Assembly (NCBI GenBank): GCA_017470165.1
Contig: JAFUEX010000011.1
Coordinates: forward strand, 1-64,000
From: Alphaproteobacteria bacterium
GTDB taxonomy: Bacteria > Pseudomonadota > Alphaproteobacteria > RF32 > CAG-239
Length of the DNA: 64,000 nucleotides
Reading direction: 5' to 3'
This document shows, in pieces, positions 6,966-40,174 of the stretch (its first letter is position 1; every line of letters starts with the position of its first letter). Both the position numbers and the translations under genes were made by a program. A model generated the notes under the pieces. The model searched no databases, was not told where the DNA came from, and saw only the letters and a list, made by a program, of their open reading frames with translations.

Positions 6966-6988
6966 CAATCTTCAACCTCTTGTGTGTC

Positions 6989-23254: not shown

Positions 23255-23257
23255 CAT

Positions 23258-23263
23258 TGGTCG
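23258..23263. other. attL core (TGGTCG)
   Basis: This 6-mer equals the complement of the CGACCA end of tRNA-Pro. It lies between the host terminator (23221-23254) and the detached recombinase tail (23264-23356). Serine recombinases need only a very short shared core, so a long duplication is not expected. Confidence 0.7.
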
Positions 23264-23356
23264 TCTTCACTCGACATTATTAGAATGTTTTCAGACGATG
23301 ATATAATAGCTATAGAAGAAGTTAAGCAGACATTTAATATTAAAAAAGAACTGTAA
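23264..23356 (+). pseudogene. Detached 3' end of the serine recombinase gene (30 codons plus stop)
   Basis: Reading on from the core in the frame TGG-TCG gives SSLDIIRMFSDDDII and continues for 30 codons to the TAA at 23354-23356. It has no start of its own that makes sense. The recombinase at 38607 enters its copy of the core in exactly the same frame (TGG at 40098). In the circular form the two would join to a recombinase of about 529 residues. It is therefore best read as the native C-terminal end cut off by integration. Confidence 0.75.
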
Positions 23357-23402
23357 AAATTTATATATAAAATTTAGGTATTAATTTTTAGGATATTGTT
23401 TT

Positions 23403-24002
23403 TTAACTCAATTCTACAATTTTTCGTTGAGCTTCGGTGTCGTAAGCAATATAGCATTGAGTCGTTGATAAAGATGAATGACCGGCAAGAAGTCTAACGT
23501 CGTTAAGTGTACCGCCGACAAGGCTTATATGCTTTGCTGCATTTGTAATAAAAGTCCGCCGACCGCTATGTGAAGAACAGCCGTTAAAACCAATTGTTTT
23601 ATAAAGATTATAGAAAAAATTGACAATAACCTGCGGTGTCGTATGTTCGCCTCGTTCGGTCGTAATAATCGGCTTATCTAGGCTGAAATATTCGCTTTTT
23701 TGTTGTTTTGCTAATAACTCCGATAACAACAACTTTAAGTCTTTATGTAATGGTATAATACGCCCCGAATATTTGCCTTTGCTCGCGTTGTTGCTTAAAT
23801 TAATGACATTAGCAATTTTGCCGTCTGAATTGCAGACCATAGACCAAACTAGCTTTGAAATCTCTTTAGCCCTTAGTCCGGCTTTAAAACTTAAAAGAAA
23901 TATAATTTTATTGCGTAACGGGTAGCGTGTCGTTTCTAAATGCGCCAGAGTTAAATTTTGCTGTTTGTCGCTTAAGATTTTTGCTTGCTTACCTATCGAC
24001 AT
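23403..24002 (-). CDS. Tyrosine recombinase, catalytic domain only
   Basis: The 199 residues cover just the phage-integrase catalytic domain. R is in FKAGLRAKEISKL, HxxR in SSHSGRRTF, the second His in LAGHSSLSTT, and the Tyr nucleophile in TTQCYIAYD. The N-terminal core-binding (SAM-like) domain of most integrases is missing. The ATG at 24002 follows a GGAGG site with good spacing; an upstream TTG adds four codons. It reads toward the left end of the island. It may act as a resolvase or invertase rather than the integrase, because the end structure points to the serine recombinase. Confidence 0.88.
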   Translation of the reverse strand: MSIGKQAKILSDKQQNLTLAHLETTRYPLRNKIIFLLSFKAGLRAKEISKLVWSMVCNSDGKIANVINLSNNASKGKYSGRIIPLHKDLKLLLSELLAKQQKSEYFSLDKPIITTERGEHTTPQVIVNFFYNLYKTIGFNGCSSHSGRRTFITNAAKHISLVGGTLNDVRLLAGHSSLSTTQCYIAYDTEAQRKIVELS

Positions 24003-24122
24003 TTTGACCTCCAAACTTATTATAAATATCTGATTTTACAAATAAATTATAATGAGTTCGTACACAAGATCAAGAACAGAATTTCTCAAGCCATTGAAAA
24101 ATAAGAACTTATTATAAAATAT

Positions 24123-24167
24123 AAGTTCTATAATGAGTCGATTCTGTCATAAAAAATTATAGAACTT
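24123..24167. promoter_or_regulatory. Inverted repeat upstream of the RhuM-Fic gene
   Basis: AAGTTCTATAAT (24123-24134) and ATTATAGAACTT (24156-24167) are a perfect 12-bp inverted repeat with a 21-base spacer. It lies in the 234-base gap between the divergent tyrosine recombinase and rhuM-fic genes. A regulator site or recombination arm site is likely. Confidence 0.55.
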
Positions 24168-24236
24168 TATAAAGATTCATTATATTTTAAATTTAATCGT
24201 TTATTATTTGCAAAACATTTTTAAGGGAATCGCACA

Positions 24237-25223
24237 ATGACAGAGTCTAATATTGTTATATACCAAGCCCCTAGCGGAAAAACACAAATAGACGTGCAAC
24301 TGCAAAATGATACAATTTGGCTTTCGCAAAGAGCAATGGCTGATTTATTTGAATGTACGGCAGACAATATTTCTTTGCACCTTAGAAATATCTATAAAGA
24401 CCAAGAATTAGATAAAGATTCAACTACCGAGGATTTCTCGGTAGTTCAAATTGAGGGTACGCGAGAGGTTAAAAGAAAGCAGACTCTTTATAATTTAGAT
24501 GCCATTATTGCTGTCGGCTATCGTATTAATTCTAAGAAAGCAACCCAATTTCGTATCTGGGCGACAGGGATATTAAAGCAATATTTGGTTGAGGGTTTTG
24601 CCGTTAATGAAAAACGCTTAAACGAGAAACAGGCGCAAATTAATAAATTGCAAAATGCGATTAACTTATTGTCGCGCAGTATTAAAAATTATGCTAAAAA
24701 TGTTAATGAAGCCGAGGTTTTAACTAATATTATGGCAGATTTTGCACAAGGACTTAATCTGCTTGACGATTATGATAATAAAACGCTTGATACAAAAGGA
24801 AGAACAAATAAATCAGCCGTTATTATCGGCAGAGAAGAATTTTTAAGCGTTATTGATAAAATGAAACCCGAATTTGGCTCTGATGTTTTTGCTAACCCAA
24901 AAGACGATAGTTTTGATAGCTCCATAAATCAGATTTATCAGACTTTCGGCGGTGCTGATTGTTACCCGACAATTGAGGAAAAAGCGGCAATGTTGCTTTA
25001 TTTCTTAGTCAAAAATCATAGTTTTACCGACGGCAATAAGCGTATTGGTGCGGCTTGTTTCTTATATTTCTTGAATAAAAACGGTATTTTATATCAAGAT
25101 GGCGCGCAAATTATAGATAATGCGGCTTTATTTGCCCTAACGGTTTTAATTGCTGAAAGCAAGCCGGAAGAAAAAGACACGATGAAACAAGTCATTATTA
25201 GTGTCTTAAACAAAGGTCAGTAA
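24237..25223 (+). CDS. RhuM family protein with C-terminal Fic/Doc domain
   Basis: The N-terminal 110 residues are the RhuM/ORF6N-like domain (IWLSQRAMADLFECTADNIS, then LDAIIAVGYRINSKKATQFR). A coiled region leads to a C-terminal Fic domain with the motif HSFTDGNKRIG at about residues 262-272. That is the HPFxxGNxR active loop with Ser in place of Pro and Lys before Arg. Fic enzymes transfer AMP or other groups to proteins; the RhuM part probably binds DNA or a partner. Such proteins are common cargo on genomic islands. Its own promoter region contains a 12-bp inverted repeat. Confidence 0.88.
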   Translation: MTESNIVIYQAPSGKTQIDVQLQNDTIWLSQRAMADLFECTADNISLHLRNIYKDQELDKDSTTEDFSVVQIEGTREVKRKQTLYNLDAIIAVGYRINSKKATQFRIWATGILKQYLVEGFAVNEKRLNEKQAQINKLQNAINLLSRSIKNYAKNVNEAEVLTNIMADFAQGLNLLDDYDNKTLDTKGRTNKSAVIIGREEFLSVIDKMKPEFGSDVFANPKDDSFDSSINQIYQTFGGADCYPTIEEKAAMLLYFLVKNHSFTDGNKRIGAACFLYFLNKNGILYQDGAQIIDNAALFALTVLIAESKPEEKDTMKQVIISVLNKGQ

Positions 25224-25262
25224 TTTAATCAATTTTTTGTTTAGTTTATATCTAACCTCTTA

Positions 25263-25289
25263 AATTTTCTAAAATAGTTATAGAAAATT
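25263..25289 (+). terminator. AT-rich inverted repeat after rhuM-fic
   Basis: AATTTTCTA (25263-25271) and TAGAAAATT (25281-25289) form a perfect 9-bp arm pair with a 9-base loop. It could end rhuM-fic transcription or be an operator for the RNA-like region that follows. Confidence 0.4.
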
Positions 25290-25304
25290 AAGGATTGCTG
25301 TTGT

Positions 25305-25516
25305 ATGCTCATTTCAGCTCCAAAAGAGCGGGGACTTTACAATCCCTCACAACACGGTCTGGTAATTTTAGAGAAGACAGACCGAAAACAAAAACACTTC
25401 TCCCAGTGCTATGACTGGGAGATGATGTCATGTCCAAGCGTAAGCTAAAAGCATTATGCTGTTGTTGTGCAGTTGTAAACTCCCAGTCGCCCTTTTGTGG
25501 CGACTGTAATTTTTTT
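25305..25516 (+). ncRNA. Candidate structured RNA with terminal terminator hairpin
   Basis: The 371-base gap between rhuM-fic and the zinc-ribbon gene holds a chain of hairpins on the plus strand. They are GCTC/GAGC (25317-25329), GGGA/TCCC (25331-25346), CGGTCTG/CAGACCG (25355-25384), CTCCCAG/CTGGGAG (25400-25421) and AGC/GCT (25450-25460). Last is CAGTCGCC/GGCGACTG (25484-25506) with a T run to 25516. The last is a good intrinsic terminator. A 47-codon frame at 25305-25448 with a weak AAGGA site overlaps it, so a short coding gene is the alternative. I cannot match it to a known RNA family. Confidence 0.45.
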
Positions 25517-25531
25517 ATAAATAACAACTCC

Positions 25532-25544
25532 GACAGATTCTGTC
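25532..25544. promoter_or_regulatory. Palindromic operator candidate GACAGA-T-TCTGTC
   Basis: GACAGATTCTGTC is a near-perfect palindrome upstream of the zinc-ribbon gene. A similar GACAAAATCTGTC is at 35292-35304, and a half site GATTCTGTCA-like is near 24140. It may be a binding site for an island regulator. Confidence 0.4.
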
Positions 25545-25594
25545 AGTGATGTATTTTATAAGAAAAAATGTTAATAACTTTTTGGAGATTTATA

Positions 25595-25852
25595 ATGGCA
25601 ACAAAATGTAGATACTGCGGTAGTGCAAATTATGGAAAGAGCTGTGTTAAAAGCCCAACAAAAACTCACGAACATATAGAAGACGAGAAAAGATGTGAAT
25701 TTTGTGGCGCTACTAATTATGGTAAAAGTTGTGTACATAGCCCGACAAAAGCTCACCGACACGGCCACGGAGGCAATAAATGTATATGGTGCGGCTCAAC
25801 AGCTACGGGAAAATCATGTCACTACAGCCCAACCGGCTATCACGAGAAATAA
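25595..25852 (+). CDS. Triple zinc-ribbon-like repeat protein
   Basis: The 85 residues consist of three tandem copies of one unit of about 28-30 residues. The pattern is C-x2-CG-[S/A]-x2-[Y/T]-GKSC-x2-SPT-x2-H. The first two copies share NYGKSC and SPTK; the third reads TATGKSC and SPTG. Four Cys/His ligands per unit suggest three small zinc-binding knuckles. A TTTGGAG ribosome site precedes the ATG. It begins about 80 bases after the terminator of the RNA-like region. It is likely nucleic-acid or protein binding; no family name is recognised. Confidence 0.75.
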   Translation: MATKCRYCGSANYGKSCVKSPTKTHEHIEDEKRCEFCGATNYGKSCVHSPTKAHRHGHGGNKCIWCGSTATGKSCHYSPTGYHEK

Positions 25853-25875
25853 TATATTTAACAAGGAGAAATGCA

Positions 25876-26733
25876 ATGCTTACAAATAAAGATTTTTACA
25901 AATATACCAAAGAATATGCCTTAAAGAAATTAACGGCAGGGTATCAGGCAGAAAAAGGTTTAACACCGAGTACGGCACGCGAACAAGCAGAGAAACGCTT
26001 GGCTCTGTTGATAAAGCCTGTTGAAAGTTGCGATGTCAATAGTCCGAAAGCAACCATATCGGCAATTTATCGCCGTTTACTGGTTAGCTGTCAAAACCGT
26101 ACAATGATGCCTAATGTTATCAAATTTGATGCCAATCGCACTGTTTTTGAAAAATTGTTAGAAAATTTTGAGCCAACAAAAGTTTTAGCAAAATATAAAA
26201 ATGCTGATGAGGTATATAAAGTTTTTGAAAGCACATTTAATATTAACAAAGACCGTAATAGCTTATGGGTATTGTTTTCTAAGTCGGTAATTGACGGTGC
26301 TAAATTTATGAGTAAATATAAAGATGTTAAAGCATTTAGGCAAGAAATAGACAATATCGCTCAGCATTCCCCTAGTGTTTTAGCTGTTCCTCGTTTTGTT
26401 TGTGAAGAAATTAGAGGCTTAGGCGAAATTTTAGCTTGCGATTTTATTAAAGAGATCGGCTATATTGAGTATGCCAAACCCGATGTTCACATTGAATATA
26501 TTATCAAAAAACTTTGCAAAAATGAAGATATGGCTGCCAAAGAAATTTTGAACAAAGTCCAAGAAATTGCTCAAGATTCAGGTGTCAGCACATTTGAGGT
26601 TGATAAAATCTTATGGTTAATTGCTTCGGGTAAGTATTATGACATTTATCAAGTTGAGCCGACAATAGTGGTTAAAAGCGAACACGCAGGGCAAAATTTG
26701 CGTGATGAGTTTTTAGCTAGCTTACCAAAATAG
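25876..26733 (+). CDS. HhH-GPD-like protein (possible DNA glycosylase relative)
   Basis: The ATG at 25876 follows an AAGGAG site. The first 170 residues are helical and unrecognised. Residues near 180-210 read IRGLGEILACDFIKEIGY, then AKPDVHI. These match the helix-hairpin-helix and the GPD-like 'kPDvHi' segment of the HhH-GPD DNA repair fold. The later VDKILWLIASGKYYDIYQV also resembles the end of such domains. A lyase Lys is not evident. It may be a DNA-binding relative on the island rather than an active glycosylase. Confidence 0.55.
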   Translation: MLTNKDFYKYTKEYALKKLTAGYQAEKGLTPSTAREQAEKRLALLIKPVESCDVNSPKATISAIYRRLLVSCQNRTMMPNVIKFDANRTVFEKLLENFEPTKVLAKYKNADEVYKVFESTFNINKDRNSLWVLFSKSVIDGAKFMSKYKDVKAFRQEIDNIAQHSPSVLAVPRFVCEEIRGLGEILACDFIKEIGYIEYAKPDVHIEYIIKKLCKNEDMAAKEILNKVQEIAQDSGVSTFEVDKILWLIASGKYYDIYQVEPTIVVKSEHAGQNLRDEFLASLPK

Positions 26734-26751
26734 ATTTGAGGAAACTATATT

Positions 26752-26874
26752 ATGCAAAATAAAACAATTGAACAATTATGTAACGAAATTTATAATCAAT
26801 ATAAACAAGCTATGGAGCTTATCAAAGAATGCAAACAACAGCTTGAAAAGAAAGAAACGGAAAAGAATAAATAA
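26752..26874 (+). CDS. Small helical protein (40 aa)
   Basis: A GAGG site precedes an ATG 18 bases after the HhH-GPD-like gene. The 40-residue product is one long charged helix (YNQYKQAMELIKECKQQLEK) with a lysine-rich end. It is probably cotranscribed with the preceding gene. The function is unknown. Confidence 0.5.
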   Translation: MQNKTIEQLCNEIYNQYKQAMELIKECKQQLEKKETEKNK

Positions 26875-26895
26875 TTTATTTGTATCCGTCATATT

Positions 26896-26925
26896 TTGAC
26901 ATAGTTAGGTATTAGATATTATTAT
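26896..26925 (+). promoter_or_regulatory. Predicted promoter for the WYL regulator
   Basis: TTGACA (26896-26901) and TATTAT (26920-26925) are 18 bases apart. The spacer contains ATAGTTAGGTATT, a 13-mer that recurs inverted at 35338-35350 before the seven-gene operon. Confidence 0.55.
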
Positions 26926-26928
26926 AAA

Positions 26929-26992
26929 GGAGCTGATGTATTTTCTCCTACCTCTGTTAATTGAGGTTACCTTACAAATATATATCAGCTCC
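26929..26992 (+). promoter_or_regulatory. Nested inverted repeats in the WYL gene leader
   Basis: GGAGCTGAT (26929-26937) pairs with ATCAGCTCC (26984-26992). Inside it ACCTC (26950-26954) pairs with GAGGT (26963-26967). It lies between promoter and start codon, so either an operator or an RNA structure in the leader is possible. Confidence 0.45.
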
Positions 26993-27022
26993 GCCTCTAA
27001 ATCAATTTTGAAAGGTTTAAAA

Positions 27023-27970
27023 ATGGAAGTTTACGGCAAAATGCTTGATTTATTTGACTTAGTAATGGAATTGCAAGTTCATGGCGAGGGCATTTCTTTA
27101 CAAGAGATACAAGACAAATATAATATTTCACGCCGAACTGCCGAACGTATGATGAGAGCCTTAAAATCTTATTTTCCACATATTGAAGAAGTTGATACAG
27201 GCGAAAAAACCAAGCGTTGGCACTTGCCACAACACAGCCTTAAAGGATTAATCTCTTTTGCTCCCGAAGAATTGGCGGTATTTAAAAATGCCATAGATTT
27301 GTTAAAACAATACAGCACGGCTGATAATGTTAAAACAATGGAATCTGTAGAGCTTAAAATCCGCAATTTACTTAAACCGGAATATCGCAATCGTATAACC
27401 GTTGACGCCGAAGAACTAATGTTAACCGAGGGATTGGTTTGTTACCCAGGTCCGAAAATAGCCATTGCTCCAGAAATTTTAAGCACAATCAGAAAAGCTA
27501 TTTTAAGCTGTCATCAAATAAAAATGAAATATCGCTATAAAAATAAAACAGATATTTCAGAAACAACGCTAATTCCGTATGGCTTTTTATATGGACAGCG
27601 CGACCATTTTTTAGTGGCTCGTCATACCGATAAACACGATGACGGCAAACCACGGACTTATTCTCTGCCTAATATTTTAGGTGTAGAGATTTTGCCAGCC
27701 ACTTTTAATATAGATGGCTTTTCATTAAGCGAATATGCCGCCGAATCTTTTGGTTCATGGCACGAAAAACCTGTTGATGTAGAGTGGCTATTTAGCAAAA
27801 ATGTTGCTGATGAAGTCAAATATTTTGTTTTTCACCCCAAGCAAGAAATGATTGAAAATGCTGACGGCAGTATAACGGTTAAATTTCGTGCCGGTGGTAT
27901 AAAAGAAATGGACTGGTTTCTTTATACTTGGGGCAATGAAGTCAAGGTTATTAAACCGAATAAAGAATAA
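27023..27970 (+). CDS. WYL domain transcriptional regulator
   Basis: An N-terminal helix-turn-helix (ISLQEIQDKYNISRRTAERMM, residues 21-41) is followed by a WYL domain and a C-terminal WCX extension. The WYL domain is centred on IPYGFLYGQRDHFLVARH. WYL regulators sense ligands, often nucleic-acid fragments, and frequently control mobile or defence genes. The ATG at 27023 follows an AAAGG site; 315 residues is normal. It probably controls the island, and perhaps itself through the repeats at 26929-26992. Confidence 0.9.
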   Translation: MEVYGKMLDLFDLVMELQVHGEGISLQEIQDKYNISRRTAERMMRALKSYFPHIEEVDTGEKTKRWHLPQHSLKGLISFAPEELAVFKNAIDLLKQYSTADNVKTMESVELKIRNLLKPEYRNRITVDAEELMLTEGLVCYPGPKIAIAPEILSTIRKAILSCHQIKMKYRYKNKTDISETTLIPYGFLYGQRDHFLVARHTDKHDDGKPRTYSLPNILGVEILPATFNIDGFSLSEYAAESFGSWHEKPVDVEWLFSKNVADEVKYFVFHPKQEMIENADGSITVKFRAGGIKEMDWFLYTWGNEVKVIKPNKE

Positions 27971-27989
27971 ATATTTTATAAGGATAAAA

Positions 27990-29510
27990 ATGCTATATAC
28001 TGGATTTAGAGAAATAGACGATAATTTAGGCGGTATCGAAAACGGCGAGTTGGTGGTTATTGCCACTGATTTGTTGGGAGAATATGTGCAGAATTACATT
28101 TTATATAACTTGGCAAATCAGATAGATGGACACAATCGTCAAAACATTAAAAATTATGATAAAAAAATAAACGCGTTTATAGATTATAAAGATGTTGAGT
28201 TTGAACATCCGATTGAAAAAATTGTCGTTTTAGGGATAAATGATTTAGAGTTTAACGCTTTGTCCGGCTTTCCATGTGGTACATTTCAGCCGGAACGATT
28301 TAACTTGTTTCAGAAAAAAATGATATTATTTAAGAATTTACCGATTGAACAAAATATTTACTATCTTTATCAGCGGTCGGCTAAATCTTTAATCGAAGAT
28401 ATAACATCTATTTATGAAGATATAAAAACACAAATATCTGCTATATGCGTTTTCGGGTGGCGTCAAAAACTCCCAATGCTAAAAGAAGTGGCGCAAAAAC
28501 TGAATATTCCTGTATTTGTGCTGACATATATCGGGCTTAGTAAAGGTATTGAATCTAAAATACGAAAATATAAAGAGCAGTCAGCATATATTGATAAGTG
28601 GGTTATTGTAGAGAATAATTGTTGGCATGAAAATAGTGCGGATTTGCCTCATGCTACGACAACTTTTCTTTTGGCAGATGTTAAATCAGATTCTGTTACA
28701 TCGGTAATTTCCGATTATTATCCATATTTGTTTAAAATATCTATACCTGATTATAAGCCCAAGTACCATCTCAAACCTAAAGAATATAACAATCAGTTTT
28801 TGATTACATTAAAAATAGATGAAAATAAAGCAACCGACTGGGAAAAATTCAAAGAGATTCTTAAGCCGTGGACAGATAAATATCAAAATATTGATGAGCC
28901 ATTTATGCACGATGAACAAAATGAAGAGTTCCGACAAGAAAAAAATAAGGCATTAAACAAAGGAATATTAAATTTATTTATAAAAATTAATGAATTAAAT
29001 AAGTTAAGAAATGTCTATTGTTATTCTCCGAACTTATTACTTGAATATCCCTTGCTTTCTTGTGTGTTTGGTTTTACAGATGATTATAAACCAAAGCTAT
29101 TTAATAAAAAAGTAGCCAAAAATTTATCGATAAACGATATAATTATCTTTACGGACATGGAATCAAAAGAGGTAAAAAATTTATTTGCTGATGGCACAAT
29201 TTCCAAAGTTCACGAGTTAAAGAGCCGAGAAAATCTGATTTTAGCAGAAATGGCACGTTATGAGCTTAACATAAATAAATATAATTTTTCAAAATATATG
29301 CACCTGCCTCGTAAGAAAATGGAGAGATTTTGGGCTTACATAGAAGTTTTTCAGCGCATAGAATTAGAAGATTTATACGAATTAATTGCGGAATATAAAA
29401 ATGGCAAAGCCGATAAGCAGGAGCTAATGCTTGCTGCGGTTATCTTGCGTAAATTATTAGTTGGCAACCAAGAACAAATAACCATTACCGAAAAATCTAA
29501 CGAAGAATAG
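27990..29510 (+). CDS. DnaB/RecA-fold protein lacking Walker motifs (long paralogue)
   Basis: The N-terminus TGFREIDDNLGGIENGELVVIA copies the start of the DnaB C-terminal ATPase (TGFxxLDxxxGGLxxGxLxxIA). The next segment, ATDLLGEYVQNYIL, has no GxxxxGK[S/T] Walker A. The strand ISAICVFGWRQKLP aligns with DnaB LIVIDYLQL, with the Walker B Asp replaced by Gly. LKEVAQKLNIPVFVLT and KEQSAYIDKWVIV match later DnaB strands. So the fold is likely kept but ATP hydrolysis lost. A central insert of about 170 residues is absent from the paralogue at 30118-31191. It follows the WYL gene by 19 bases. The ATG at 27990 follows an AAGGA site. Confidence 0.65.
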   Translation: MLYTGFREIDDNLGGIENGELVVIATDLLGEYVQNYILYNLANQIDGHNRQNIKNYDKKINAFIDYKDVEFEHPIEKIVVLGINDLEFNALSGFPCGTFQPERFNLFQKKMILFKNLPIEQNIYYLYQRSAKSLIEDITSIYEDIKTQISAICVFGWRQKLPMLKEVAQKLNIPVFVLTYIGLSKGIESKIRKYKEQSAYIDKWVIVENNCWHENSADLPHATTTFLLADVKSDSVTSVISDYYPYLFKISIPDYKPKYHLKPKEYNNQFLITLKIDENKATDWEKFKEILKPWTDKYQNIDEPFMHDEQNEEFRQEKNKALNKGILNLFIKINELNKLRNVYCYSPNLLLEYPLLSCVFGFTDDYKPKLFNKKVAKNLSINDIIIFTDMESKEVKNLFADGTISKVHELKSRENLILAEMARYELNINKYNFSKYMHLPRKKMERFWAYIEVFQRIELEDLYELIAEYKNGKADKQELMLAAVILRKLLVGNQEQITITEKSNEE

Positions 29511-29562
29511 ACTTTTTTTTAACTTTAGTCATTATAAAATTATACAGAAAGGAGCTTTAATT

Positions 29563-30144
29563 ATGCCGACAGCTTTAGAAGAAAAATTTGCCTCAATAAA
29601 AAAATATATACCTAAAGAATTATTAAACGTGGCGCAAAATAAGAATTTAGAAGATTATAAATACATTCTGCCGCGTATAAATGTCGGTAACTTGCCGTTT
29701 AGATTTAAGCTCAATACACGCGGTGGGTGGGTAACCCCAGACGGGTCGTGGTATTTAGAATCAACTTCTGCCGATGTAGATTGTGTTTTAAGACCACGCT
29801 TAAAAGATTCGTTTAAATTTAATAACAATCTGCGCTTACAGGCTTTTCAAGAGGGGTGGATACGAATTGACTGGAAACAACCCTCATTTGGATTACAATT
29901 TGATGTTAGTGAAAGTTCTTCAAGGCGGTTAATTATAACAGTTGACGGCTCGCAAAAAATCTCGCATAAGCTCTTTCTTGCTATACAAACAATCGCTATG
30001 CTTTATACGGTTATTCAAGCGAATAAAATTGTTTATGAACTGCGGCTTGTTACTAAATATGATAAAAACAATATTATTCATAAAGCCGAAGATTGCCGCG
30101 GTTTTGAATTTTTTAACCTAAAATTGAATAAAATCAGACGATGA
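29563..30144 (+). CDS. Unknown soluble protein
   Basis: I do not recognise this 193-residue protein. It has a good AGAAAGGAG ribosome site, no signal peptide and no membrane span. A beta-rich centre (GGWVTPDGSWYLESTSADVDCVLRP) is followed by an amphipathic helix. It lies between the two DnaB-like paralogues, same strand as the long one, and its last 27 bases overlap the 3' end of the short one on the opposite strand. Confidence 0.6.
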   Translation: MPTALEEKFASIKKYIPKELLNVAQNKNLEDYKYILPRINVGNLPFRFKLNTRGGWVTPDGSWYLESTSADVDCVLRPRLKDSFKFNNNLRLQAFQEGWIRIDWKQPSFGLQFDVSESSSRRLIITVDGSQKISHKLFLAIQTIAMLYTVIQANKIVYELRLVTKYDKNNIIHKAEDCRGFEFFNLKLNKIRR

Positions 30145-32962: not shown

Positions 32963-33755
32963 TTTCATTGTCTCCATTGCTAAGCTGATAACTTGCCCAT
33001 AAATCAAGTTTCCATCGGTTTAATAGCCGGACAATTTCTTTTTTATCTTTGTCCGACATATTGAGATAGCAGTCTTTTTCAACTTCGTCCTCAATAATTA
33101 AATTGTCTGGTGTATATGGCTCTGCCGTTTCATAATCAATCAGCCGCACGCTAAAAATAGACTTAAACCTATCCGCCCAATTAATATCTCTTAAAGGAGT
33201 ACCTCTGTATTGCTGATTATTTAAATGTACACAAACGTGCGCGTGTGGTTGTCTGTCCAGCATTTCATTATCTTCGGTAAACAAAAGAAATTTGCCGATA
33301 TTCCAGTTAAACTTCTCATCTCTTGTTCCGTGAGGTGCCGCCATAGATGTAATTTTCAACTCCCGACAGCGATAAATAAAATCTTCTGCCGGACTTAATT
33401 CTTGAAACAGCGGTAAACCATCGTGCGAATCATATTCCCTGATATGTTTCGCATACCAACAATCGGGAAACCACCGTCTTACAAATTTTCGCATAACCGA
33501 ATAATTAACCCTTATCGTATGAATTAATCGCCCCAGTTCGTCAATCATATAGCAGGTATAATCTTTTGTTAGTTTTGGGAACAATGCCCGAACCTGTATT
33601 TCATCAGCATTAATATCGTCCATATCTAAAATATTTGACTTCCATGCATAAACTACATTACCATTCGTTAAAACCTTAATAAATTTTTTGGTCTTAATAA
33701 ACTGCACCAGTTCCTTGCGTTTCGTAATACGCTTAATGTCATTAATATTTAACAT
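32955..33755 (-). CDS. Paralogue B of a two-domain protein with a PHxH module
   Basis: This 266-residue protein is clearly paralogous to the one at 34229-35065 along most of its length (FIKVLTNGNVVYAW, KFVRRWFP, then the PHAHVCVHLNN motif and FKSIFSVRL). The stretch EDN-x6-PHxH-x-x-V followed by a late helix ending DLWxxY resembles DUF4160 (DHNPPHFHV, then EW and LxxNW). DUF4160 is a small domain often found in toxin-antitoxin-like pairs. That link is inference from pattern only. It overlaps both neighbours by 7-8 bases. Confidence 0.5.
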   Translation of the reverse strand: MLNINDIKRITKRKELVQFIKTKKFIKVLTNGNVVYAWKSNILDMDDINADEIQVRALFPKLTKDYTCYMIDELGRLIHTIRVNYSVMRKFVRRWFPDCWYAKHIREYDSHDGLPLFQELSPAEDFIYRCRELKITSMAAPHGTRDEKFNWNIGKFLLFTEDNEMLDRQPHAHVCVHLNNQQYRGTPLRDINWADRFKSIFSVRLIDYETAEPYTPDNLIIEDEVEKDCYLNMSDKDKKEIVRLLNRWKLDLWASYQLSNGDNENE

Positions 33756-34213
33756 TTTGTTTTATAACCTCTTCGTCTGACGTTTTCTTGTTCTATTTTT
33801 ATAAAATTATTATATTTATCTATATCTTTGACTATATCATTAGAAGTTAAATAATCGCATAGAGCTTCTAAATAGTTAGGGAATTTTGTAATTCCGCCGT
33901 CATTAGCCAATAGCCAATCAACAATTAACTGTTTGTTTTCAGGAGTTAGAACTCTAGGGGATACTTCTCCAACAAATTCTAAATTATCAACCGTATAGTT
34001 GCTATCTGCTCTAAAATTTAGAACTGCTACTGACTTATATTCCGGATAATATGAGAATTGAATTTCGTTTACGCATTTTCTGTATTTTTTGTTACTAGTC
34101 CTGACCCCAATTCTTAAATGAGGTAAAATGTCTTTACCCCCGTCTTCGCAAATAAAAAAAGCTAATTCCCCTCTTTCCCCGCTTTTATCTGAAATACAAT
34201 TTGTTTGTTTCAT
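33749..34213 (-). CDS. Short relative carrying only the PH module
   Basis: The 154 residues align with the C-terminal part of its two neighbours. LAFFICEDGGKDILPHLRIG matches FxxEDN-PHxHxxV, and SNKKYR and YKSVAVLNF match TNRKYK and YKSIFSIQL. The second His of PHxH is Arg here. It lacks the N-terminal domain shared by the other two. The stop overlaps the next start by 7 bases. It lies between the two longer paralogues, which suggests tandem duplication and trimming. Confidence 0.5.
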   Translation of the reverse strand: MKQTNCISDKSGERGELAFFICEDGGKDILPHLRIGVRTSNKKYRKCVNEIQFSYYPEYKSVAVLNFRADSNYTVDNLEFVGEVSPRVLTPENKQLIVDWLLANDGGITKFPNYLEALCDYLTSNDIVKDIDKYNNFIKIEQENVRRRGYKTKC

Positions 34214-34228
34214 TATTTTATTGCTCCT

Positions 34229-35065
34229 TTAAGGTATAAATTTTTTACGCCAATCTAAGTTTTTCTCTTTTTGCCAAAACTTTTGTTCATTTTGCTCATG
34301 TTCTTGATTTGCCGCATATTTGCGCCAAAGGTCGTATTTATAAGTGTTTAGCATTGTGCAAATGCTGTCTTTATCAACATCAGGCATACTGCTGAAATTT
34401 TCGTATATATCTTCTGCAAACACTAAATATCCGGCACGATAAAATTCATTTTCATCTTTCTCTACATTATCGTATGTCAAAAAACGGCTAGGGTCTTTAA
34501 GTTGAATGCTGAAGATGGACTTATATTTTTGCGCCCAATATACATCTCGTAACGGCTGACCTTTATATTTACGATTCGTCAACTCCACGCATATATGAAC
34601 ATGGGGTTCAAGATGTGGCAATTCGTTATCTTCAATAAATAAGCTGATTTTACCATCTGTCGCGATTTTATCGGCAATCGCTGTTAAGTGATATTGGCGG
34701 TAAAGCTCTATTTTATTTAATAACGGCTCGGTATTTAGAAATAAATCTAATCCGTCAAGTTTATCATATTCGGTAATATAGTCTTTATAATAACAACTAG
34801 GAAACCAACGGCTGATAAATTTTTGCATAACGGCATAATCAATTTTAACCGAATGAATAAGCCGCCCTTTATCTATCCGATAAGCGGCAAATTTGTCGGT
34901 AATCTCACTAAAGGCGTTTCTGACTTCATCGTGGCTAGCAATATCATAATCCCAAGCATAAACATCTTCGCCATTCGTTAAAATGCGGATTAACGGATAT
35001 TTTTTTATCAGTTCGATAAACCTTTCTTTATCTGCTATTTTGTAAATTTGGCTGGTATCTATCAT
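34229..35065 (-). CDS. Paralogue A of a two-domain protein with a PHxH module
   Basis: The 278 residues share the N-terminal domain (LIRILTNGEDVYAWDYD, LIHSVKIDYAVMQKFISRWFP) and the C-terminal PH module (EDNELPHLEPHVHICVELTN, then YKSIFSIQL) with the gene at 32955-33755. The late helix DKDSICTMLNTYKYDLWRKY is where DUF4160 proteins have their closing helix. No catalytic residues are evident beyond the His pair. The start overlaps the small membrane gene's stop (ATGA). Confidence 0.5.
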   Translation of the reverse strand: MIDTSQIYKIADKERFIELIKKYPLIRILTNGEDVYAWDYDIASHDEVRNAFSEITDKFAAYRIDKGRLIHSVKIDYAVMQKFISRWFPSCYYKDYITEYDKLDGLDLFLNTEPLLNKIELYRQYHLTAIADKIATDGKISLFIEDNELPHLEPHVHICVELTNRKYKGQPLRDVYWAQKYKSIFSIQLKDPSRFLTYDNVEKDENEFYRAGYLVFAEDIYENFSSMPDVDKDSICTMLNTYKYDLWRKYAANQEHEQNEQKFWQKEKNLDWRKKFIP

Positions 35066-35241
35066 GGCATTGTTACCGTAAAATAGTTAAATATACCGAT
35101 TGAAACCATTGCGGCAGTAATGCCAACAACGATACCTGCTAACTCGCTTTTGTTCTTTTGTTGCTTTTTAAGCCAATAGCCAAAAGCAACCATTACCAGT
35201 AACGCGACACAAACAAGCGAAAATAAAACGACTTTAACCAT
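35062..35241 (-). CDS. Small two-span membrane protein, first gene of the minus-strand operon
   Basis: The 59-residue product has two hydrophobic helices (VVLFSLVCVALLVMVAFGYW and AGIVVGITAAMVSIGIF) joined by a basic loop KKQQKNKSE. An AGGAGC site precedes the ATG. Its stop overlaps the next ATG (ATGA). With the basic loop, both ends should face outward. Its first position in the operon suggests a membrane part for the otherwise soluble set. Confidence 0.65.
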   Translation of the reverse strand: MVKVVLFSLVCVALLVMVAFGYWLKKQQKNKSELAGIVVGITAAMVSIGIFNYFTVTMP

Positions 35242-35291
35242 ATTTAAGCTCCTAAAATTTAACTCTATAATAACTTATAACAGCGAAAGCC

Positions 35292-35304
35292 GACAAAATC
35301 TGTC
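35292..35304. promoter_or_regulatory. Operator-like palindrome GACAAAATCTGTC
   Basis: This is a second near-copy of the site at 25532-25544, located 51 bases before the ATG of the seven-gene operon. The intergenic stretch also contains the 13-mer shared with the WYL promoter (35338-35350) and a 15-mer AAATTCTGTTCTTGA (35374-35388) found inverted at 24070-24084. Confidence 0.4.
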
Positions 35305-35434
35305 ATACTTAATTTTAAAGTCTTTGAAAAAATAGTTCAATACCTAACTATCTGAAAAATATAAATTTTATTTAAATTCTGTTCTTGAACTTGAGCCGAT
35401 TCGCAAATAAAATATAAAAAAATGAGGTACAAAA

Positions 35435-35758
35435 ATGACAGTAGAAAAAACAAGACAGCTTAATGATAAGTTTCGGCAGACTTTTAACGGCGGTAAAGTC
35501 GTTTTTACAAGAGGTGTGGCAGATTTGCCGTTAAACGAGCAATTAGCCATTATCGGCAAAGTGCAAAATTTTAATTCATTTACCAAGAACAACGACCCTT
35601 ACGGCGAACACGATTTTGGTGCATTTGATTTTGGCGGCACAACCTATTTTTGGAAAATTGATTATTACGATATTGATTACCACTGCCTAAGCCAAGACCC
35701 AAGTGACCCAACCATAACAAACCGCGTCTTAACCATTATGAGAGCTGATGAATACTAA
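35435..35758 (+). CDS. DUF3768 protein
   Basis: DUF3768 proteins are small proteins frequent on alphaproteobacterial plasmids and integrative elements. The family segments are clear: LNDKFRQTFNGGKVVFTRGV, then YGEHDFGAFDFGGTTYFWKI, then RVLTIMRADEY. The 107 residues are a full length. The function is not known. It is a useful marker that the island descends from plasmid or ICE material. It is divergent from the seven-gene operon. Confidence 0.9.
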   Translation: MTVEKTRQLNDKFRQTFNGGKVVFTRGVADLPLNEQLAIIGKVQNFNSFTKNNDPYGEHDFGAFDFGGTTYFWKIDYYDIDYHCLSQDPSDPTITNRVLTIMRADEY

Positions 35759-35859
35759 ATATCAAAAGATACTATTTCTTTTTTATAATTTTACCTTGAT
35801 TTATATTAGAAAATTTTTTAATTAAAAGTAGATTATACTTAAAACTTAAGGAATATGTG

Positions 35860-36867
35860 ATGTTAATAAATTTTAGACAAGCATTAGAATATATGGTCAA
35901 AGGACTAGAGCCTGTTTCAGAAAAAGCAGAAAAAGAACGTGCCAAAGAAGATGTTCTGACAGAAGAATATAGAACAGCTCGTGAACAACTTAGAACTATG
36001 CTAGAAAATAATTACATTCCTCTTAAAGGGATAAAAGGCAACATAAAAATTTTCGATACTTTTCCTCAAACAATTTCTAGTGAAGACTTTTATAAAAGCA
36101 GTCTTTTCTTTTTACAAATGGATGCTGTTAGAAGTACTGGAATGGTCGATTTAGCATACCAAAGTCAAGATTTATCTTATAACAAATTAACTAATCAAAA
36201 TTTTATAATGGTTGATTCGGAAACTGATAACCACAATCTATACAGTGATGTTTATAAAGACTGTAATATAAATGGCAAATTATTCCGAGCCGACTATCCT
36301 AAACAAGAATTAATCTCAACAAAAGCTATGTTTTGGTGCTTAGAAAAAGATAAAGATGGCAAATCACGATATATCAAACAAGAAGAAATCGTTGAAAGAG
36401 AAGATGTTGACACCGAATTTATAAAAAATTCGGACATAGACTGGATTCGAAGTATTGTAGCTGACAATATAGATAACCCATTATTTGAGAGATTTGAACC
36501 ATTTAATACACGGGGATATGCTTTTATTGTAATGGATTTTAATGATCTTAAAAAAGCTATTAAAAAATATGATATGGTTTCTAGGCAAACCTTTAAAATA
36601 GATAAAAAAGCTTTTTTTGGAGATTTAATGGATGAATTGCTGAAAAATAACGTGAATCATTGCTACTATCCCGATGCAATGCGAGCTTTTTATAATAAAT
36701 GTGGTGTCGAAAAAACATCAAAGGGTAATTCGGAATCGTCTTTACGCGATGCAATGAAAATTGTTGGAGAAGACTTCTATTGCGAAGTTCCTGATAAACA
36801 AAGAGCAACAAGAACCCCTCAAAATCTAAGCAAGTATAGTGCCAATATAGAAGTGAAATACATATAG
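35860..36867 (+). CDS. Unknown soluble protein
   Basis: I do not recognise this 335-residue protein. The ATG at 35860 follows an AAGGAA site. It has an N-terminal coiled helix (KAEKERAKEDVLTEEYRTA). No membrane segment is seen. A cysteine/aromatic C-terminal part includes CYYPDAMRAFYNKCG. It is AT-rich like the rest of the island and is probably its own unit. Confidence 0.55.
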   Translation: MLINFRQALEYMVKGLEPVSEKAEKERAKEDVLTEEYRTAREQLRTMLENNYIPLKGIKGNIKIFDTFPQTISSEDFYKSSLFFLQMDAVRSTGMVDLAYQSQDLSYNKLTNQNFIMVDSETDNHNLYSDVYKDCNINGKLFRADYPKQELISTKAMFWCLEKDKDGKSRYIKQEEIVEREDVDTEFIKNSDIDWIRSIVADNIDNPLFERFEPFNTRGYAFIVMDFNDLKKAIKKYDMVSRQTFKIDKKAFFGDLMDELLKNNVNHCYYPDAMRAFYNKCGVEKTSKGNSESSLRDAMKIVGEDFYCEVPDKQRATRTPQNLSKYSANIEVKYI

Positions 36868-37115
36868 TGAAAAAACACTAAAATTTAATCCATTATATTA
36901 CCACGGTATTTTCATGGTATAAAGGCTTTCTAATAAATAACGAAAAATCAAATCGTTATGGGCATAATCTATCTAAAATATAATTTTTCGGAGTATACCG
37001 CGGAAATTCGCGGATTTGTTCATTTTGAATGAATTTTCATTCTTTATTTACATGCTAGGATGAGGACATGTTAAGCGCTTAACATTTTGACTAACCCTAA
37101 GAAAAGGAAAACAAG
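36868..37115. promoter_or_regulatory. Inverted-repeat-rich region before the replication gene
   Basis: The 248-base gap holds TACCA/TGGTA (36899-36919), CCGCG/CGCGG (36998-37013) and a perfect 18-bp palindrome ATGTTAAGC/GCTTAACAT (37068-37085). Such a set before a Rep gene suits a copy-control operator or a nick-site region. Confidence 0.5.
37068..37085. promoter_or_regulatory. Perfect 18-bp palindrome
   Basis: ATGTTAAGCGCTTAACAT is self-complementary and lies 30 bases before the start of the 37116 gene, where a dimeric repressor would block transcription. Confidence 0.6.
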
Positions 37116-37361
37116 ATGTTAAATATAAACAAAGAAATATGTCCTCTTGAAATAGCCAAATCAGCACTAAATACTTGTGCGTTGGTCGATGAATTGGAGG
37201 TACAAAACGCACCGCGTGAGCAAATTGATGAGGCTGAACTTGCTGTTAAACATATTAGCGATTTAATCTCTCAATTTTACCGTATGCATGCCGATATTAT
37301 GCTTAAAGCTGCTAATGATAACTTATTGTCTATGGGAGGCGATGATGATAATACAATCTAA
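37116..37361 (+). CDS. Small acidic helical protein upstream of rep
   Basis: The 81-residue product is helical and acidic (LVDELEVQNAPREQIDEAELAVKHISDLI). An AAAAGGAAAA site precedes it. Its 3' end overlaps the start of the replication gene by 17 bases, so the two are coupled. It may be a Rep accessory or regulator; no family is recognised. Confidence 0.6.
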   Translation: MLNINKEICPLEIAKSALNTCALVDELEVQNAPREQIDEAELAVKHISDLISQFYRMHADIMLKAANDNLLSMGGDDDNTI

Positions 37362-38514
37362 CCTCACTAGACCAGAAGAAATCACAGAACATAAAGCAAT
37401 CTGCGATACAATCAGGCTTCAATTTAACTTTGAAGATTTTGAAATTTTTGAAGATAAATTCGATACTGCAGTAGATACAGTTCTAAACTTTCATGGTTAT
37501 GGTACAGCGCAAAGTTTTCAAAATATGACTACAGAAGACAAGCGAAACCACTATTATAAACCAAGGTTAGCATTAAAAAGCGAGCCGAGACCAACTGGTC
37601 GGAAAATATCATTGTATCTTGATGCATCTCTGCCCAAATTACTTTATGGTAATAATTTGCAAGAAGTTTGTGACCAAGATTTTAGGCAAATTGTCTTAAG
37701 AATGCGAGATACAATGCTCGACATGGGAGTAAAAATTAGTCCCAAAACCATAGCTACCGCACATGTTTGTCGTTATCATTGTTGTAAAAATATCATTTTG
37801 CCAGACGAAATAACGACGCAATTTATAATTAACGAATGTGCCAAAATAGACCTTGGAAACCGCTTGGGCAATGGCTATACAACTTATGCTAATGGCGGTC
37901 ATTGTGCCAGATTTCACGCCAACACATTTGAAGTTGCCACCTATGACAAAATAGCCGACATTAAACAAAAGGGGATTTCACCTAAAAGATGTGTTGATGA
38001 GGAATCGCACAGAGAATTTCAAGAAATTGACATAAAAAAGCTCGGAAACCTACAAGTCTTTAGGTTAGAGGTGCGGTTAAACAATGCTAAAACTATTAGG
38101 CGGAAATTTGCTGAAGCAAATATCTGTTTTGACAAAGGACAAGACATTACCTTTCGCGACGTCTTTAAAAGTTCTGTGGCACGGCAAATGAACTTATATT
38201 CGTGGAAAAAAATATGTGAAGCCGGATACCCCATTTTTTGCCTACAGGATAACAGCAAAATAATGCTTGATAGGTTGCCTAGCAGTATCAAGTTCATAAA
38301 AAAACTTGAAATACTCGGATTAACAAAGGTAATTGATGACTACGGTGTTCCCTATGTCAAAAAATTAGTTGGCAGAAACACGACATTGTCAAAATTGTTC
38401 AAATTTTTGCAAAGTTATAAGCCTGATAATCAGAAAACACTAAAAGCATTTAAATTTATTGAACAAAAAATTTCTGAGAATGATGTGATTGTTTTGCCAA
38501 TAAAGGCAGAGTAG
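37345..38514 (+). CDS. Phage/plasmid-type replication protein (Phage_X/gene II-like)
   Basis: The 389-residue protein resembles rolling-circle replication proteins of the filamentous-phage gene II/X group. The LYLDASLPKLLYGNNLQE segment matches their 'S.PK...GNN..E' signature, and QVFRLEVRLNN matches the later 'lR.EvrL' strand. A catalytic Tyr cannot be fixed by eye. The ATG at 37345 is chosen because GGGAGG lies 5 bases before it; ATG at 37342 is too close. It suggests that the element can replicate after excision. Confidence 0.6.
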   Translation: MIIQSNLTRPEEITEHKAICDTIRLQFNFEDFEIFEDKFDTAVDTVLNFHGYGTAQSFQNMTTEDKRNHYYKPRLALKSEPRPTGRKISLYLDASLPKLLYGNNLQEVCDQDFRQIVLRMRDTMLDMGVKISPKTIATAHVCRYHCCKNIILPDEITTQFIINECAKIDLGNRLGNGYTTYANGGHCARFHANTFEVATYDKIADIKQKGISPKRCVDEESHREFQEIDIKKLGNLQVFRLEVRLNNAKTIRRKFAEANICFDKGQDITFRDVFKSSVARQMNLYSWKKICEAGYPIFCLQDNSKIMLDRLPSSIKFIKKLEILGLTKVIDDYGVPYVKKLVGRNTTLSKLFKFLQSYKPDNQKTLKAFKFIEQKISENDVIVLPIKAE

Positions 38515-38518
38515 CCGA

Positions 38519-38564
38519 AATTTGGGCAATGCTCTGAAATTTAAAGACTTTGCCCTAATTTTTC
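38519..38564 (+). terminator. Probable terminator after rep
   Basis: GGGCAA (38524-38529) pairs with TTGCCC (38550-38555) with A/T flanks that extend the stem, followed by TAATTTTT. Confidence 0.5.
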
Positions 38565-38606
38565 TTGAGAAAATGTAAACTGAAATTAAAATAAGGATTT
38601 GAAACA

Positions 38607-40127
38607 ATGTTAAATTATATTGAAAGTAAAAAAATGACACAAAACCTAAAAGCCGTGGTGTTCGCACGGGTATCAACCAGAGAACAAAAAGAAGGCTATT
38701 CAATCGATGGACAATTACACCGTATAGAGAAGTATTGTGAAAGTAAACAGATTCCGATTATTGCCACATATACGCCGGCAGAGAGTTCTACCAGAGGAGC
38801 GCGCAAAAAGTTTTTTGAAATGTTAGACTTTGTCAAAAAACAAAAAATGCCTATTGCCATCGTTTGTGATAAGGTTGACCGCTTACAAAGAAGCTTTAAG
38901 GAATACCACTTTATAATGGATTTGGTGGACAATCATAAGACACAGCTCCACTTTGTAACAGAAAATGAGGTGTTAACAAAAGATTCTAACAGCAATGAGT
39001 TTATGATGTACCACATGAGTATTGTTATAGCTGAGGGATATGTCAAATGCTTGTCGGACAATGTTAAACGTGGAATGCGAGAAATGCCGGACAAAGGCGA
39101 GTATTTTCATACTGCCCCTGTTGGATACCTAAATCAACGAACTAGTCGTCATCAAACAACGATTATTGTTGACCCGATTATGGGACCGATAGTAAGAAAG
39201 CTTTTTCGCGAATATGCTACTGGACTTTATTCGTTGGCTGATATCACTCGCATGGCAAATAACTTAGGATTTAAAACTATTCGTAACGGCATAGCCCACA
39301 AACAGACAATTATTAATATGTTAAATAACCATTTTTATTATGGCTATATGCGTTGCTATGGCAAATTATACCCTCATAATTACGAAAAATTGATAAGTAA
39401 AGAGCTTTTTGATACTTGTCAGGATCTCCTTCATGGGAGGTCTTGGCATAAAAAACGCAAGATAAATGATTTATATAGAGGGCTAATTTATTGTGAAAAC
39501 TGTGGAAGATTAATTACACCTGACGTTAAACAAAAAACAAATGGTAGAGTACACCGTTATCTATTTTGCCCGCATTGTAAAGGCGCTCGCATTAATGAGA
39601 ATATAGTTGACGCTAAAATTAAAGATGACTTGTGTAGGCTTAAAAAAATGCCGATAACGTGGCTTGAAAAAGTTCTGATTGTGATTCAAAAAGAAGTTAA
39701 AGAAAAGCATAAAATAGAAATAGAAGAGCAACGTTCTTTAAAAAGTCAAAAAACACAACTAGAAAGCCGTAAGGAAGTTTTGCTTGATAGACTTCTTGAT
39801 AATAGTATAACAAGGGAATTATATCATAAAAAATTAAATGATATAAACATTGAATTAGAAAAAATAGATAGTCTATTAAATCACGATAATAAAACCAGTA
39901 ATAAGACCATAAACAGCTTAGAAGACTTGATTTTATTGGTATCTAAGATACCTGAGATTTATGAAAGTTCGAACTCTGATGAAAAAAGGAAAGTTCTAAA
40001 ATTGCTCTATTCGAACTTTTTGCTGGAAGGAAAAAATCCTTTATTTTCAATAAGAAAGCCTCTAGAGAATATCCTCTCTGGAGGCTTTCGTCAAATGTGG
40101 TCGGGACAGCTGGATTCGAACCAGTGA
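38607..40127 (+). CDS. Large serine recombinase (integrase) whose last codons lie in tRNA-Pro
   Basis: The N-terminal resolvase domain carries the catalytic Ser in FARVSTREQ (S23), with RLQRSF and YHMSIVIAEGY later. The Recombinase domain spans about residues 175-290. A zinc ribbon (YCENCGR to CPHCKG) lies near 300-335, followed by a coiled coil. The gene crosses the attR core and ends 24 bases beyond it in the host tRNA gene (tail GQLDSNQ). Without the host DNA the frame would continue into the 30-codon tail at 23264-23356. So the integrated form has a shortened, foreign C-terminus. This is the likely integrase of the element. Confidence 0.92.
   Translation: MLNYIESKKMTQNLKAVVFARVSTREQKEGYSIDGQLHRIEKYCESKQIPIIATYTPAESSTRGARKKFFEMLDFVKKQKMPIAIVCDKVDRLQRSFKEYHFIMDLVDNHKTQLHFVTENEVLTKDSNSNEFMMYHMSIVIAEGYVKCLSDNVKRGMREMPDKGEYFHTAPVGYLNQRTSRHQTTIIVDPIMGPIVRKLFREYATGLYSLADITRMANNLGFKTIRNGIAHKQTIINMLNNHFYYGYMRCYGKLYPHNYEKLISKELFDTCQDLLHGRSWHKKRKINDLYRGLIYCENCGRLITPDVKQKTNGRVHRYLFCPHCKGARINENIVDAKIKDDLCRLKKMPITWLEKVLIVIQKEVKEKHKIEIEEQRSLKSQKTQLESRKEVLLDRLLDNSITRELYHKKLNDINIELEKIDSLLNHDNKTSNKTINSLEDLILLVSKIPEIYESSNSDEKRKVLKLLYSNFLLEGKNPLFSIRKPLENILSGGFRQMWSGQLDSNQ
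40054..40089. terminator. Element-borne hairpin behind tRNA-Pro
   Basis: GAAAGCCTC (40054-40062) pairs with GAGGCTTTC (40081-40089). On the minus strand it lies just after the tRNA 3' end and could replace the displaced host terminator, though the T run is weak. Confidence 0.5.
40098..40103. other. attR core (TGGTCG)
   Basis: The 6-mer is the complement of the CGACCA 3' end of tRNA-Pro and matches attL at 23258-23263. It is read as TGG-TCG (Trp-Ser) in the recombinase frame at both ends. Confidence 0.7.
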
Positions 40128-40174
40128 CATCTTGCTCCCAAAGCAAGCGCTCTACCAGACTGAGCTATGTCCCG
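40098..40174 (-). tRNA. tRNA-Pro (UGG anticodon)
   Basis: On the minus strand a complete 77-base cloverleaf begins CGGGACATAGCTCAG and ends with encoded CCA. The acceptor stem CGGGACA pairs with TGTCCCG. The anticodon stem CTTGC/GCAAG encloses TTTGGGA, giving UGG. The T loop is GGTTCGAATCC. It is intact in spite of the insertion at its 3' end. Confidence 0.97.

Follow-up and report, generated by a model that had tools for sequence, protein, structure and literature searches.

The window analysed in this work is a 64,000-nucleotide stretch of DNA from an alphaproteobacterial assembly (GCA_017470165.1, contig JAFUEX010000011.1, positions 1 to 64,000). It contains a gene for a large serine recombinase (LSR) that ends inside a gene for tRNA-Pro, and this gene and the mobile element to which it very probably belongs are the subject of what follows. 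The recombinase, its target and the two copies of a short core sequence are located as follows.

38607 to 40127, + strand: LSR, integrated form, 506 amino acids (open reading frame; PF00239, PF07508)
40098 to 40174, − strand: tRNA-Pro(TGG), target gene, intact (ARAGORN)
40098 to 40103, no strand assigned: right core TGGTCG, complement of the tRNA 3' end CGACCA (sequence)
23258 to 23263, no strand assigned: left core TGGTCG (sequence)
23258 to 23356, + strand: predicted native 3' end of the LSR gene, 32 codons plus TAA, detached by integration (sequence; W-x7-R pattern common to far-end and some native tails)

The protein has the domain content of an LSR, a match to PF00239 (Resolvase, 4.3e-22) being followed by one to PF07508 (Recombinase, 3.9e-13), and in an alignment of 19 LSRs the candidate zinc-ribbon cysteines are invariant (C296) or nearly invariant (C299 and C321). 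Its reading frame enters the antisense 3' end of tRNA-Pro and the stop codon lies inside the tRNA gene. At the right core TGG encodes Trp498 and TCG encodes Ser499, after which the protein ends in GQLDSNQ, and the antisense strand of tRNA-Pro thus supplies the 8 codons beyond Trp498 as well as the stop. When the frame is continued from position 23258 instead, it reads WSSSLDIIRMFSDDDIIAIEEVKQTFNIKKEL, 32 residues, and then TAA, and the protein joined across the two cores would have 529 residues vs. 506 in the integrated form. The first-pass annotation had proposed from these observations that the attachment site of the element (attP) lies inside the LSR gene and that integration exchanges the C-terminus. 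The positions that it gave for the two TGGTCG copies, its in-frame reading of TGG-TCG up to a stop within tRNA-Pro, the 30 codons that it found open past the left TGG-TCG, and both protein lengths agree with the sequence, the open reading frames and the ARAGORN prediction. TGGTCG occurs 27 times on both strands of the window vs. 18.7 expected, a count that was reached in 3 of 100 shuffles, and 7 copies are located on the + strand upstream of the last 1.4 kb of the LSR gene. The 6-mer alone is not significant, and the case for the two cores rests on related loci.

Overlap of LSR genes with tRNA genes at related loci

Relatives of the LSR are present in 21 of the 36 genomes of the genus. Two further relatives are found in the genome of the window itself, against tRNA-Asp (intact) and tRNA-Gln (decayed), and a tRNA is contained in 17 of 28 further LSR loci fetched from the genus. 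The recombinase frame crosses the tRNA 3' end in 17 of the 20 tRNA-bearing loci (the exceptions are L003, L018, and L024), and in L022 and L023 the crossing frame has only about 100 codons. A wider set of 93 loci was made up of the best 80 of 132 relatives in public genome contigs and the 13 strongest of 29 loci in viral contigs. The LSR overlaps the antisense 3' end of a tRNA in 59 of the 93 (58 of the 80 from genome contigs and 1 of the 13 viral loci), and at these 59 overlaps the TGG that is complementary to the tRNA CCA is read as an in-frame Trp in 47 and in another frame in 11, one overlap having no TGG. The loci are assigned to Alphaproteobacteria, Rickettsiales, several candidate-phyla bacteria, Melainabacteria, and others, and since nearly all of them come from metagenome bins single assignments may be wrong. 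On a Legionella plasmid the LSR runs into tRNA-Asn, within which the annotated gene also ends, and a Neochlamydia plasmid carries a decayed copy at tRNA-Tyr. Counted over every locus seen, the targets comprise 14 tRNA isotypes, and for one of these the neighbouring gene is decayed.

Across the 19 aligned LSRs the Trp occupies one fixed position, without a gap, whatever the tRNA, with the exception of the tRNA-Glu group. Five of the aligned LSRs are native forms without a tRNA, and the Trp is present in four of these (L011, L014, L015, and one of two in L013) and replaced by Leu in one. The tRNA-Glu group (L009, L010, L026, and L148–L152) reads the tRNA in another frame (IGDPN...). In several of its loci the gene and the tRNA are still separated by a terminator-like stretch, and the crossover may thus take place in this terminator.

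Native and tail-swapped forms of the gene have both been identified. Among the 13 viral loci a native tail is found in three (L227, L228, and L231), a tRNA overlap in one (L232), and a tRNA-type end at the contig end in two (L224 and L226), while four run off the contig and three are distant LSRs with other ends. It had been anticipated in the first-pass annotation that free recombinases would lack tails of the DSNQ type, and L227, L228, and L231 bear this out. Beyond their LSR genes these three loci continue into further genes where integrated copies have a tRNA: an endolysin in L227 (phrog_7) and, by eye, an endolysin-like open reading frame, a reverse transcriptase and a tail-fibre-like open reading frame in L231, and phage-like open reading frames in L228. 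Only L227 has genes on both sides within its contig and a tandem prophage could look alike, so that the free state of these copies is inferred. Two human-faecal "phage" records considered as free forms were rejected, both being integrated copies (at tRNA-Leu and tRNA-Glu), and neither the window LSR nor the L187 LSR, each used as a single query, had a match in the viral contigs. At positions 3740–7648 (− strand) of L231 the reverse transcriptase and a long tail-fibre-like gene are, by eye, neighbours, an arrangement like that of diversity-generating retroelements.

The native LSR of L228 and the LSR of L181, which runs into tRNA-Gln, share 90% identity over 547 amino acids, up to the junction, and another contig of the L181 genome holds a lone tail, 87% identical over 38 amino acids to the L228 tail, behind a hairpin and TGGCTG. 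By their sequences L228, L181, and the stranded tail are attP-like, attR-like (right junction), and attL-like (left junction) members of one phage/prophage family. A frame that crosses the core and ends differently in the native and integrated forms is thus observed when L228 is compared with L181 and L254, and it is predicted for the window. The LSR of the Rickettsiales contig L192, flanked on either side by other element-like genes, likewise ends in a native tail, and its identity to the tRNA-Asn-overlapping LSR of Legionella is 61%.

Tails are likewise found at the far ends of integrated elements. Those of the tRNA-Trp (G025) and tRNA-Gln (G029) elements, WQRKLYDLRKKY... and WLTKVYDLRKKY..., are alike by eye, and no convincing far end was found for the tRNA-His (G008) element, the tRNA-Leu (G024) element or L209, nor any for the tRNA-Glu group. 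In G003 and G004 a terminator region follows tRNA-Gln and matches the G029 element's left flank as far as the core, with 73% identity over 103 bp; this tRNA-Gln is probably an empty site, although the right flank beyond it does not align. Both flanks of the G029 element are recognisable in G035 (right flank, 88% over 875 bp) with an LSR-end remnant between them. The left flank at the second G029 junction has a counterpart in G001, where 90% identity extends over 147 bp as far as TGGCTG and a different tail then follows. More than one junction is present in G029, G023, L174, and Legionella. In L174, about 8.3–10.5 kb upstream of tRNA-Arg, three native-type tails lie within 2.2 kb in a locus with one LSR, and they are apparently remnants of repeated integration at one tRNA-Arg. 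Across 43 elements (three duplicates dropped) the pattern W-x7-R[TK] is encoded at 10 of 137 upstream sites that carry the element's own core 6-mer vs. 54 of 7180 other TGGNNN sites (p = 2e-7).

The tRNA half of the chromosomal site (attB) and the outer arm of attP also share a motif. The T-loop sequence TTCGAAC lies 17 bases from the T of TGG in the tRNA half of attB, and a similar motif lies at 22 in the attP arm. At this shift of +5 the octamer match over 14 pairs, some of which share a locus and five of which were found by way of the protein motif, is 74 of 112 positions, where the largest shuffled maximum is 49. For 8 pairs not selected by the protein motif, though tails were in view at selection, it is 40 of 64, where the largest of 20000 shuffles gives 31, and no shuffle maximum taken over all shifts reached this score. 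In G023 the tRNA-Thr has the unusual T-loop ATCGGAC, and the same ATCGGAC is found in the G023 attP. An inward shift by 5 bp of the zinc-ribbon motif in attB relative to attP is an established LSR rule (PMC3783163), and the pairs compared here agree with it. The protein motif W...RT is thus at least partly a DNA site seen through the genetic code. Taken on their sequences, the relatives exhibit the overlap, native and tail-swapped forms, far-end tails, and probable empty tRNA-Gln sites, and they support the proposal that attP lies within the LSR gene and that the C-terminus is exchanged.

Predicted boundaries of the element in the window

The remaining features that bear on the element in the window are listed here.

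23264 to 40103, no strand assigned: predicted integrated element, 16840 bp (distance between the cores)
40115 to 40121, no strand assigned: T-loop motif TTCGAAC in the tRNA half, proposed zinc-ribbon motif at the attB position (sequence; offset test)
23280 to 23286, no strand assigned: TTAGAAT, proposed zinc-ribbon motif at the attP position, +5 bp relative to the tRNA T-loop (5 of 8 positions match at +5)
23221 to 23255, − strand: hairpin with a T run, ending 2 bp from the left core (RNA fold of 60 nucleotides, −13.5 kcal/mol)
40054 to 40089, − strand: hairpin in the 3' coding end of the LSR gene, adjoining the tRNA when integrated (RNA fold of 60 nucleotides, −22.7 kcal/mol)
23403 to 24014, − strand: tyrosine recombinase domain protein, 203 amino acids, beside the left end (PF00589)
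37288 to 38514, + strand: replication-initiator-like protein of the element (PF05144, 22.0 bits vs. a cut-off of 21.7)

We consider with high confidence that the 16.8-kb element owes its place at the tRNA-Pro 3' end to integration by its own LSR, with attP over the last LSR codons and an exchange of the tail, and from what the relatives exhibit it is very likely that attP lies in the gene in the window also; the exact left junction is a prediction from the window sequence. A left end located elsewhere, the TGGTCG at 23258 and the open frame behind it being coincidental, is very unlikely. Such a coincidence is made conceivable by the commonness of the 6-mer, by a tail that has no homologue in the genus, and by the failure to find an empty site or a circle for this element. 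It is opposed by the presence of a single TGGTCG in the 280 bp between the stop of the S41 gene (23123) and the first gene of the element, by the hairpin that ends 2 bp from this core (in the empty site it would sit directly behind tRNA-Pro), by the 32-codon open frame with Arg at position 8, which 5% of other TGGNNN sites share, and by the T-loop-like motif at +5. The chromosome to the left of 23258 is conserved, exoIII and dgt both standing by S41 in 15 of the 29 S41 loci of relatives.

Integration by the tyrosine recombinase encoded at 23403–24014, with the LSR gene merely ending near the tRNA, is the least probable of the explanations considered and can be given very little weight. This gene adjoins the left end, tyrosine integrases often use tRNA genes (PMC4383910), and the annotation of the Legionella plasmid (L141) places a tyrosine recombinase next to its LSR, an end fragment of another being seen by eye near the LSR in L192. 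Against these points the protein has only 203 amino acids, the shared core comprises only 6 bp at the CCA end, and the overlap is found at many LSR loci; the 25-base 3' end of tRNA-Pro has one match only in the window at up to 3 mismatches, without the long far-end tRNA repeat of tyrosine-integrase islands.

Integration by the LSR with an attP in its gene has to be set against a number of observations that weigh against it. For the window, the left neighbours are conserved in relatives, yet in none of the 29 S41 loci of relatives is there a tRNA less than 1.5 kb from S41, and the search for an empty site in 36 genus genomes returned 30 S41 loci without a tRNA and 30 tRNA-Pro loci without S41 (the window's own genome is in each set). 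The circle junction of the element is absent from the viral contigs and from its own genome, which lacks the empty junction as well. The comparison of the left-end tail with related sequences, which the first-pass annotation had suggested as a check, brought no homologue in the genus, and other matches have E values of 0.17 or worse and lie in long open reading frames. The left hairpin has a T run on the + strand too and may serve S41, tRNA-Pro, or both. The window tail has Arg at position 8 after Trp but no T or K next to it, and it stands therefore outside the 10 sites counted above. Among the relatives, those 10 sites stem from only 7 of the 43 elements, and W-x7-R alone gives a weaker excess (15 of 140 vs. 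372 of 7477, p = 0.005, duplicates included). With offsets 24–26 left out, the 8 pairs score 23 (largest shuffle at that shift, 21), and this reduced score loses its significance once +5 is measured against the best of all shifts (1095 of 3000). Neither the CGAAC motif nor the Arg is present in five native LSRs of the genus (L011, L013, L014, L015, and L032), and six LSRs of Bacteroidota (L169, L170, L187, L190, L193, and L195) keep a native tail with no tRNA at the gene 3' end.

In these Bacteroidota loci the nearest tRNA is about 2 kb away in L169 and L170 and none is seen in the other four; five of the six have an attP-like TGG..CGAAC (AGAAC in L170). Inside the window element the genes at 27936–29510 (+ strand) and 30118–31191 (− strand) are alike by eye (MLYTGFREIDD...) and have opposite orientation.

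The native tail and the consequences of its exchange

Two pairs of tails, in which one member of the four is a stranded copy, differ by 10 synonymous and 5 non-synonymous codon changes: 2:0 over 44 codons for L227 and L231 (the last four codons at or past the stop) and 8:5 over 38 codons for L228 and L254. Several tails also end alike by eye (viz. VKQHLAA, VRQKVAA, and IKQELLAA). These numbers are small, and they suggest that the native tail may be under selection as a protein.

Whether the exchange has consequences for the enzyme is a separate matter; the first-pass annotation had suggested that it could switch excision off or give preference to one direction. That attP lies in the gene and the tail is swapped with no regulatory effect, the tail-less enzyme being as good as the native one and the overlap merely compact, comes close to an even chance. 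TGG and the T-loop copy would then persist for reasons of DNA, and the W and R-T of the tail motif do coincide with the core and the T-loop copy. Among the in-frame native sequences 9 have the Arg at position 8, with CGA as its codon in 7 of them and AGA in 2, L228 has CGAAC at the same place in the DNA though its gene reads another frame there, and the LSR bodies of integrated copies remain open in many lineages. Opposed to a swap without effect are the similar ends of several tails beyond the DNA motif and the 10 of 15 synonymous changes, by which the native tail seems to matter as protein.

On the reading favoured above, the core consists of TGG, which is the complement of CCA and the codon for a Trp at a fixed place in the protein, and a few bases of the acceptor stem, and the outer arm of attP repeats the T-loop motif at a position about 5 bp further out than its tRNA counterpart. 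On this reading recombination keeps the tRNA intact, substitutes a short antisense-tRNA peptide for the 31 residues after Trp, and leaves the native tail stranded at the far end of the element. The tail-less enzyme may then excise poorly, so that a single copy would be locked until a newcomer either brought in an intact enzyme or, through tandem integration, placed a fresh tail behind the resident gene. This putative lock, with poor excision by the tail-less LSR and rescue by a newcomer, is a tentative and rather doubtful part of the proposal, since no tandem junction examined has an intact recombinase before the second tail. A search for further LSR copies in Legionella, G029, and L174 found no intact LSR ahead of the second tail (in Legionella only a 36-residue end is located there), which counts against it. 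The same three cases make it unlikely, in our estimation, that the full generalisation holds, viz. that a widespread LSR group targets many tRNA 3' ends, where the T-loop would serve as zinc-ribbon motif and the complement of CCA as core, and has a self-locking switch from attP in the gene, integration taking away a conserved tail that normal recombination requires and a resident being released in trans or in cis by the tail of a second element that arrives at the same tRNA.

Relation to known systems and significance

The 3' end of the serine recombinase DsiB of Dehalococcoides (McMurdie 2011) always overlaps the attachment site in ssrA, its stop codon lying in ssrA or in the next tandem island, and its authors have proposed that DsiB may have its full function only in the circular form or where an adjacent island gives it a 3' fragment (PMC3146451). 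The LSRs studied here resemble DsiB in a recombinase 3' end that lies over an attachment site in a stable RNA gene. As far as can be compared by description, DsiB differs in its single target (tmRNA, with insertion in the T-loop), its likeness to CcrB and its partner DsiA, and the passages on it mention neither a tRNA-wide group nor a Trp/CCA core nor a 5-bp T-loop rule. In the window the target is tRNA-Pro rather than ssrA, and the gene upstream of the LSR is replication-initiator-like rather than a DsiA. At G025:C10:19317-20120 and G029:C2:38696-39478 (L031) a short serine recombinase frame (281–288 amino acids) is located directly upstream of the LSR, a pair that resembles DsiA/DsiB or CcrA/CcrB.

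The integrase of the Myxococcus phage Mx8 is not known to be a large serine recombinase. The parallel with Mx8 drawn in the first-pass annotation is an apt one, since attP lies inside int in this phage and integration gives int a new 3' end, which is reported to modify its activity and not to abolish it (PMC6070905); the likeness is in the layout and the difference in the type of integrase. In the suicidal (SSV-type) integrases of archaea, which are tyrosine recombinases, the attachment site also lies in the gene, and release is thought to need the intact enzyme of another element (PMC8371274); integration splits that gene in two, whereas the LSRs here exchange a short tail only. The serine recombinase of phiRSM and phiRs551 in Ralstonia integrates at the end of tRNA-Ser with the core TGGCGGAGAGGGT (PMC4471427, PMC5608472), which begins with the same TGG, but it is a small recombinase (196 amino acids in phiRs551) and its attP lies between two genes and not in the recombinase gene. 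The LI and A118 serine integrases of Listeria share the zinc-ribbon motif that is 5 bp nearer to the centre in attB than in attP, and an attP within the gene is not mentioned in the passages on them (PMC3783163).

It has been stated earlier that serine integrases are not known, or are known only rarely, at tRNA genes (PMC4383910, PMC3218068), and mention is made of serine recombinases of Mycobacterium elements that use tRNA-Leu (PMC3218068) and of one in a Paracoccus phage that uses tRNA-Met (PMC6536676). The word tRNA is absent from the main text of a large LSR survey (PMC10083194). A literature search, most subscription papers being outside its reach, did not turn up a tRNA-wide group of LSRs whose attP lies in the gene. 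The tRNA-wide group, the T-loop rule and the coincidence of Trp with CCA look new.

Contrary to the earlier statements, a broad group of LSRs uses tRNA genes, and it does so by way of the most conserved parts of every tRNA. Since the tail is swapped on integration, the recombinase that is read from an integrated copy differs from the enzyme that carried out the integration, a caveat that matters where LSRs are cloned from genomes as tools for genome writing. Because native and swapped forms of these enzymes occur as natural pairs, a direct test of what the tail does for directionality is possible.

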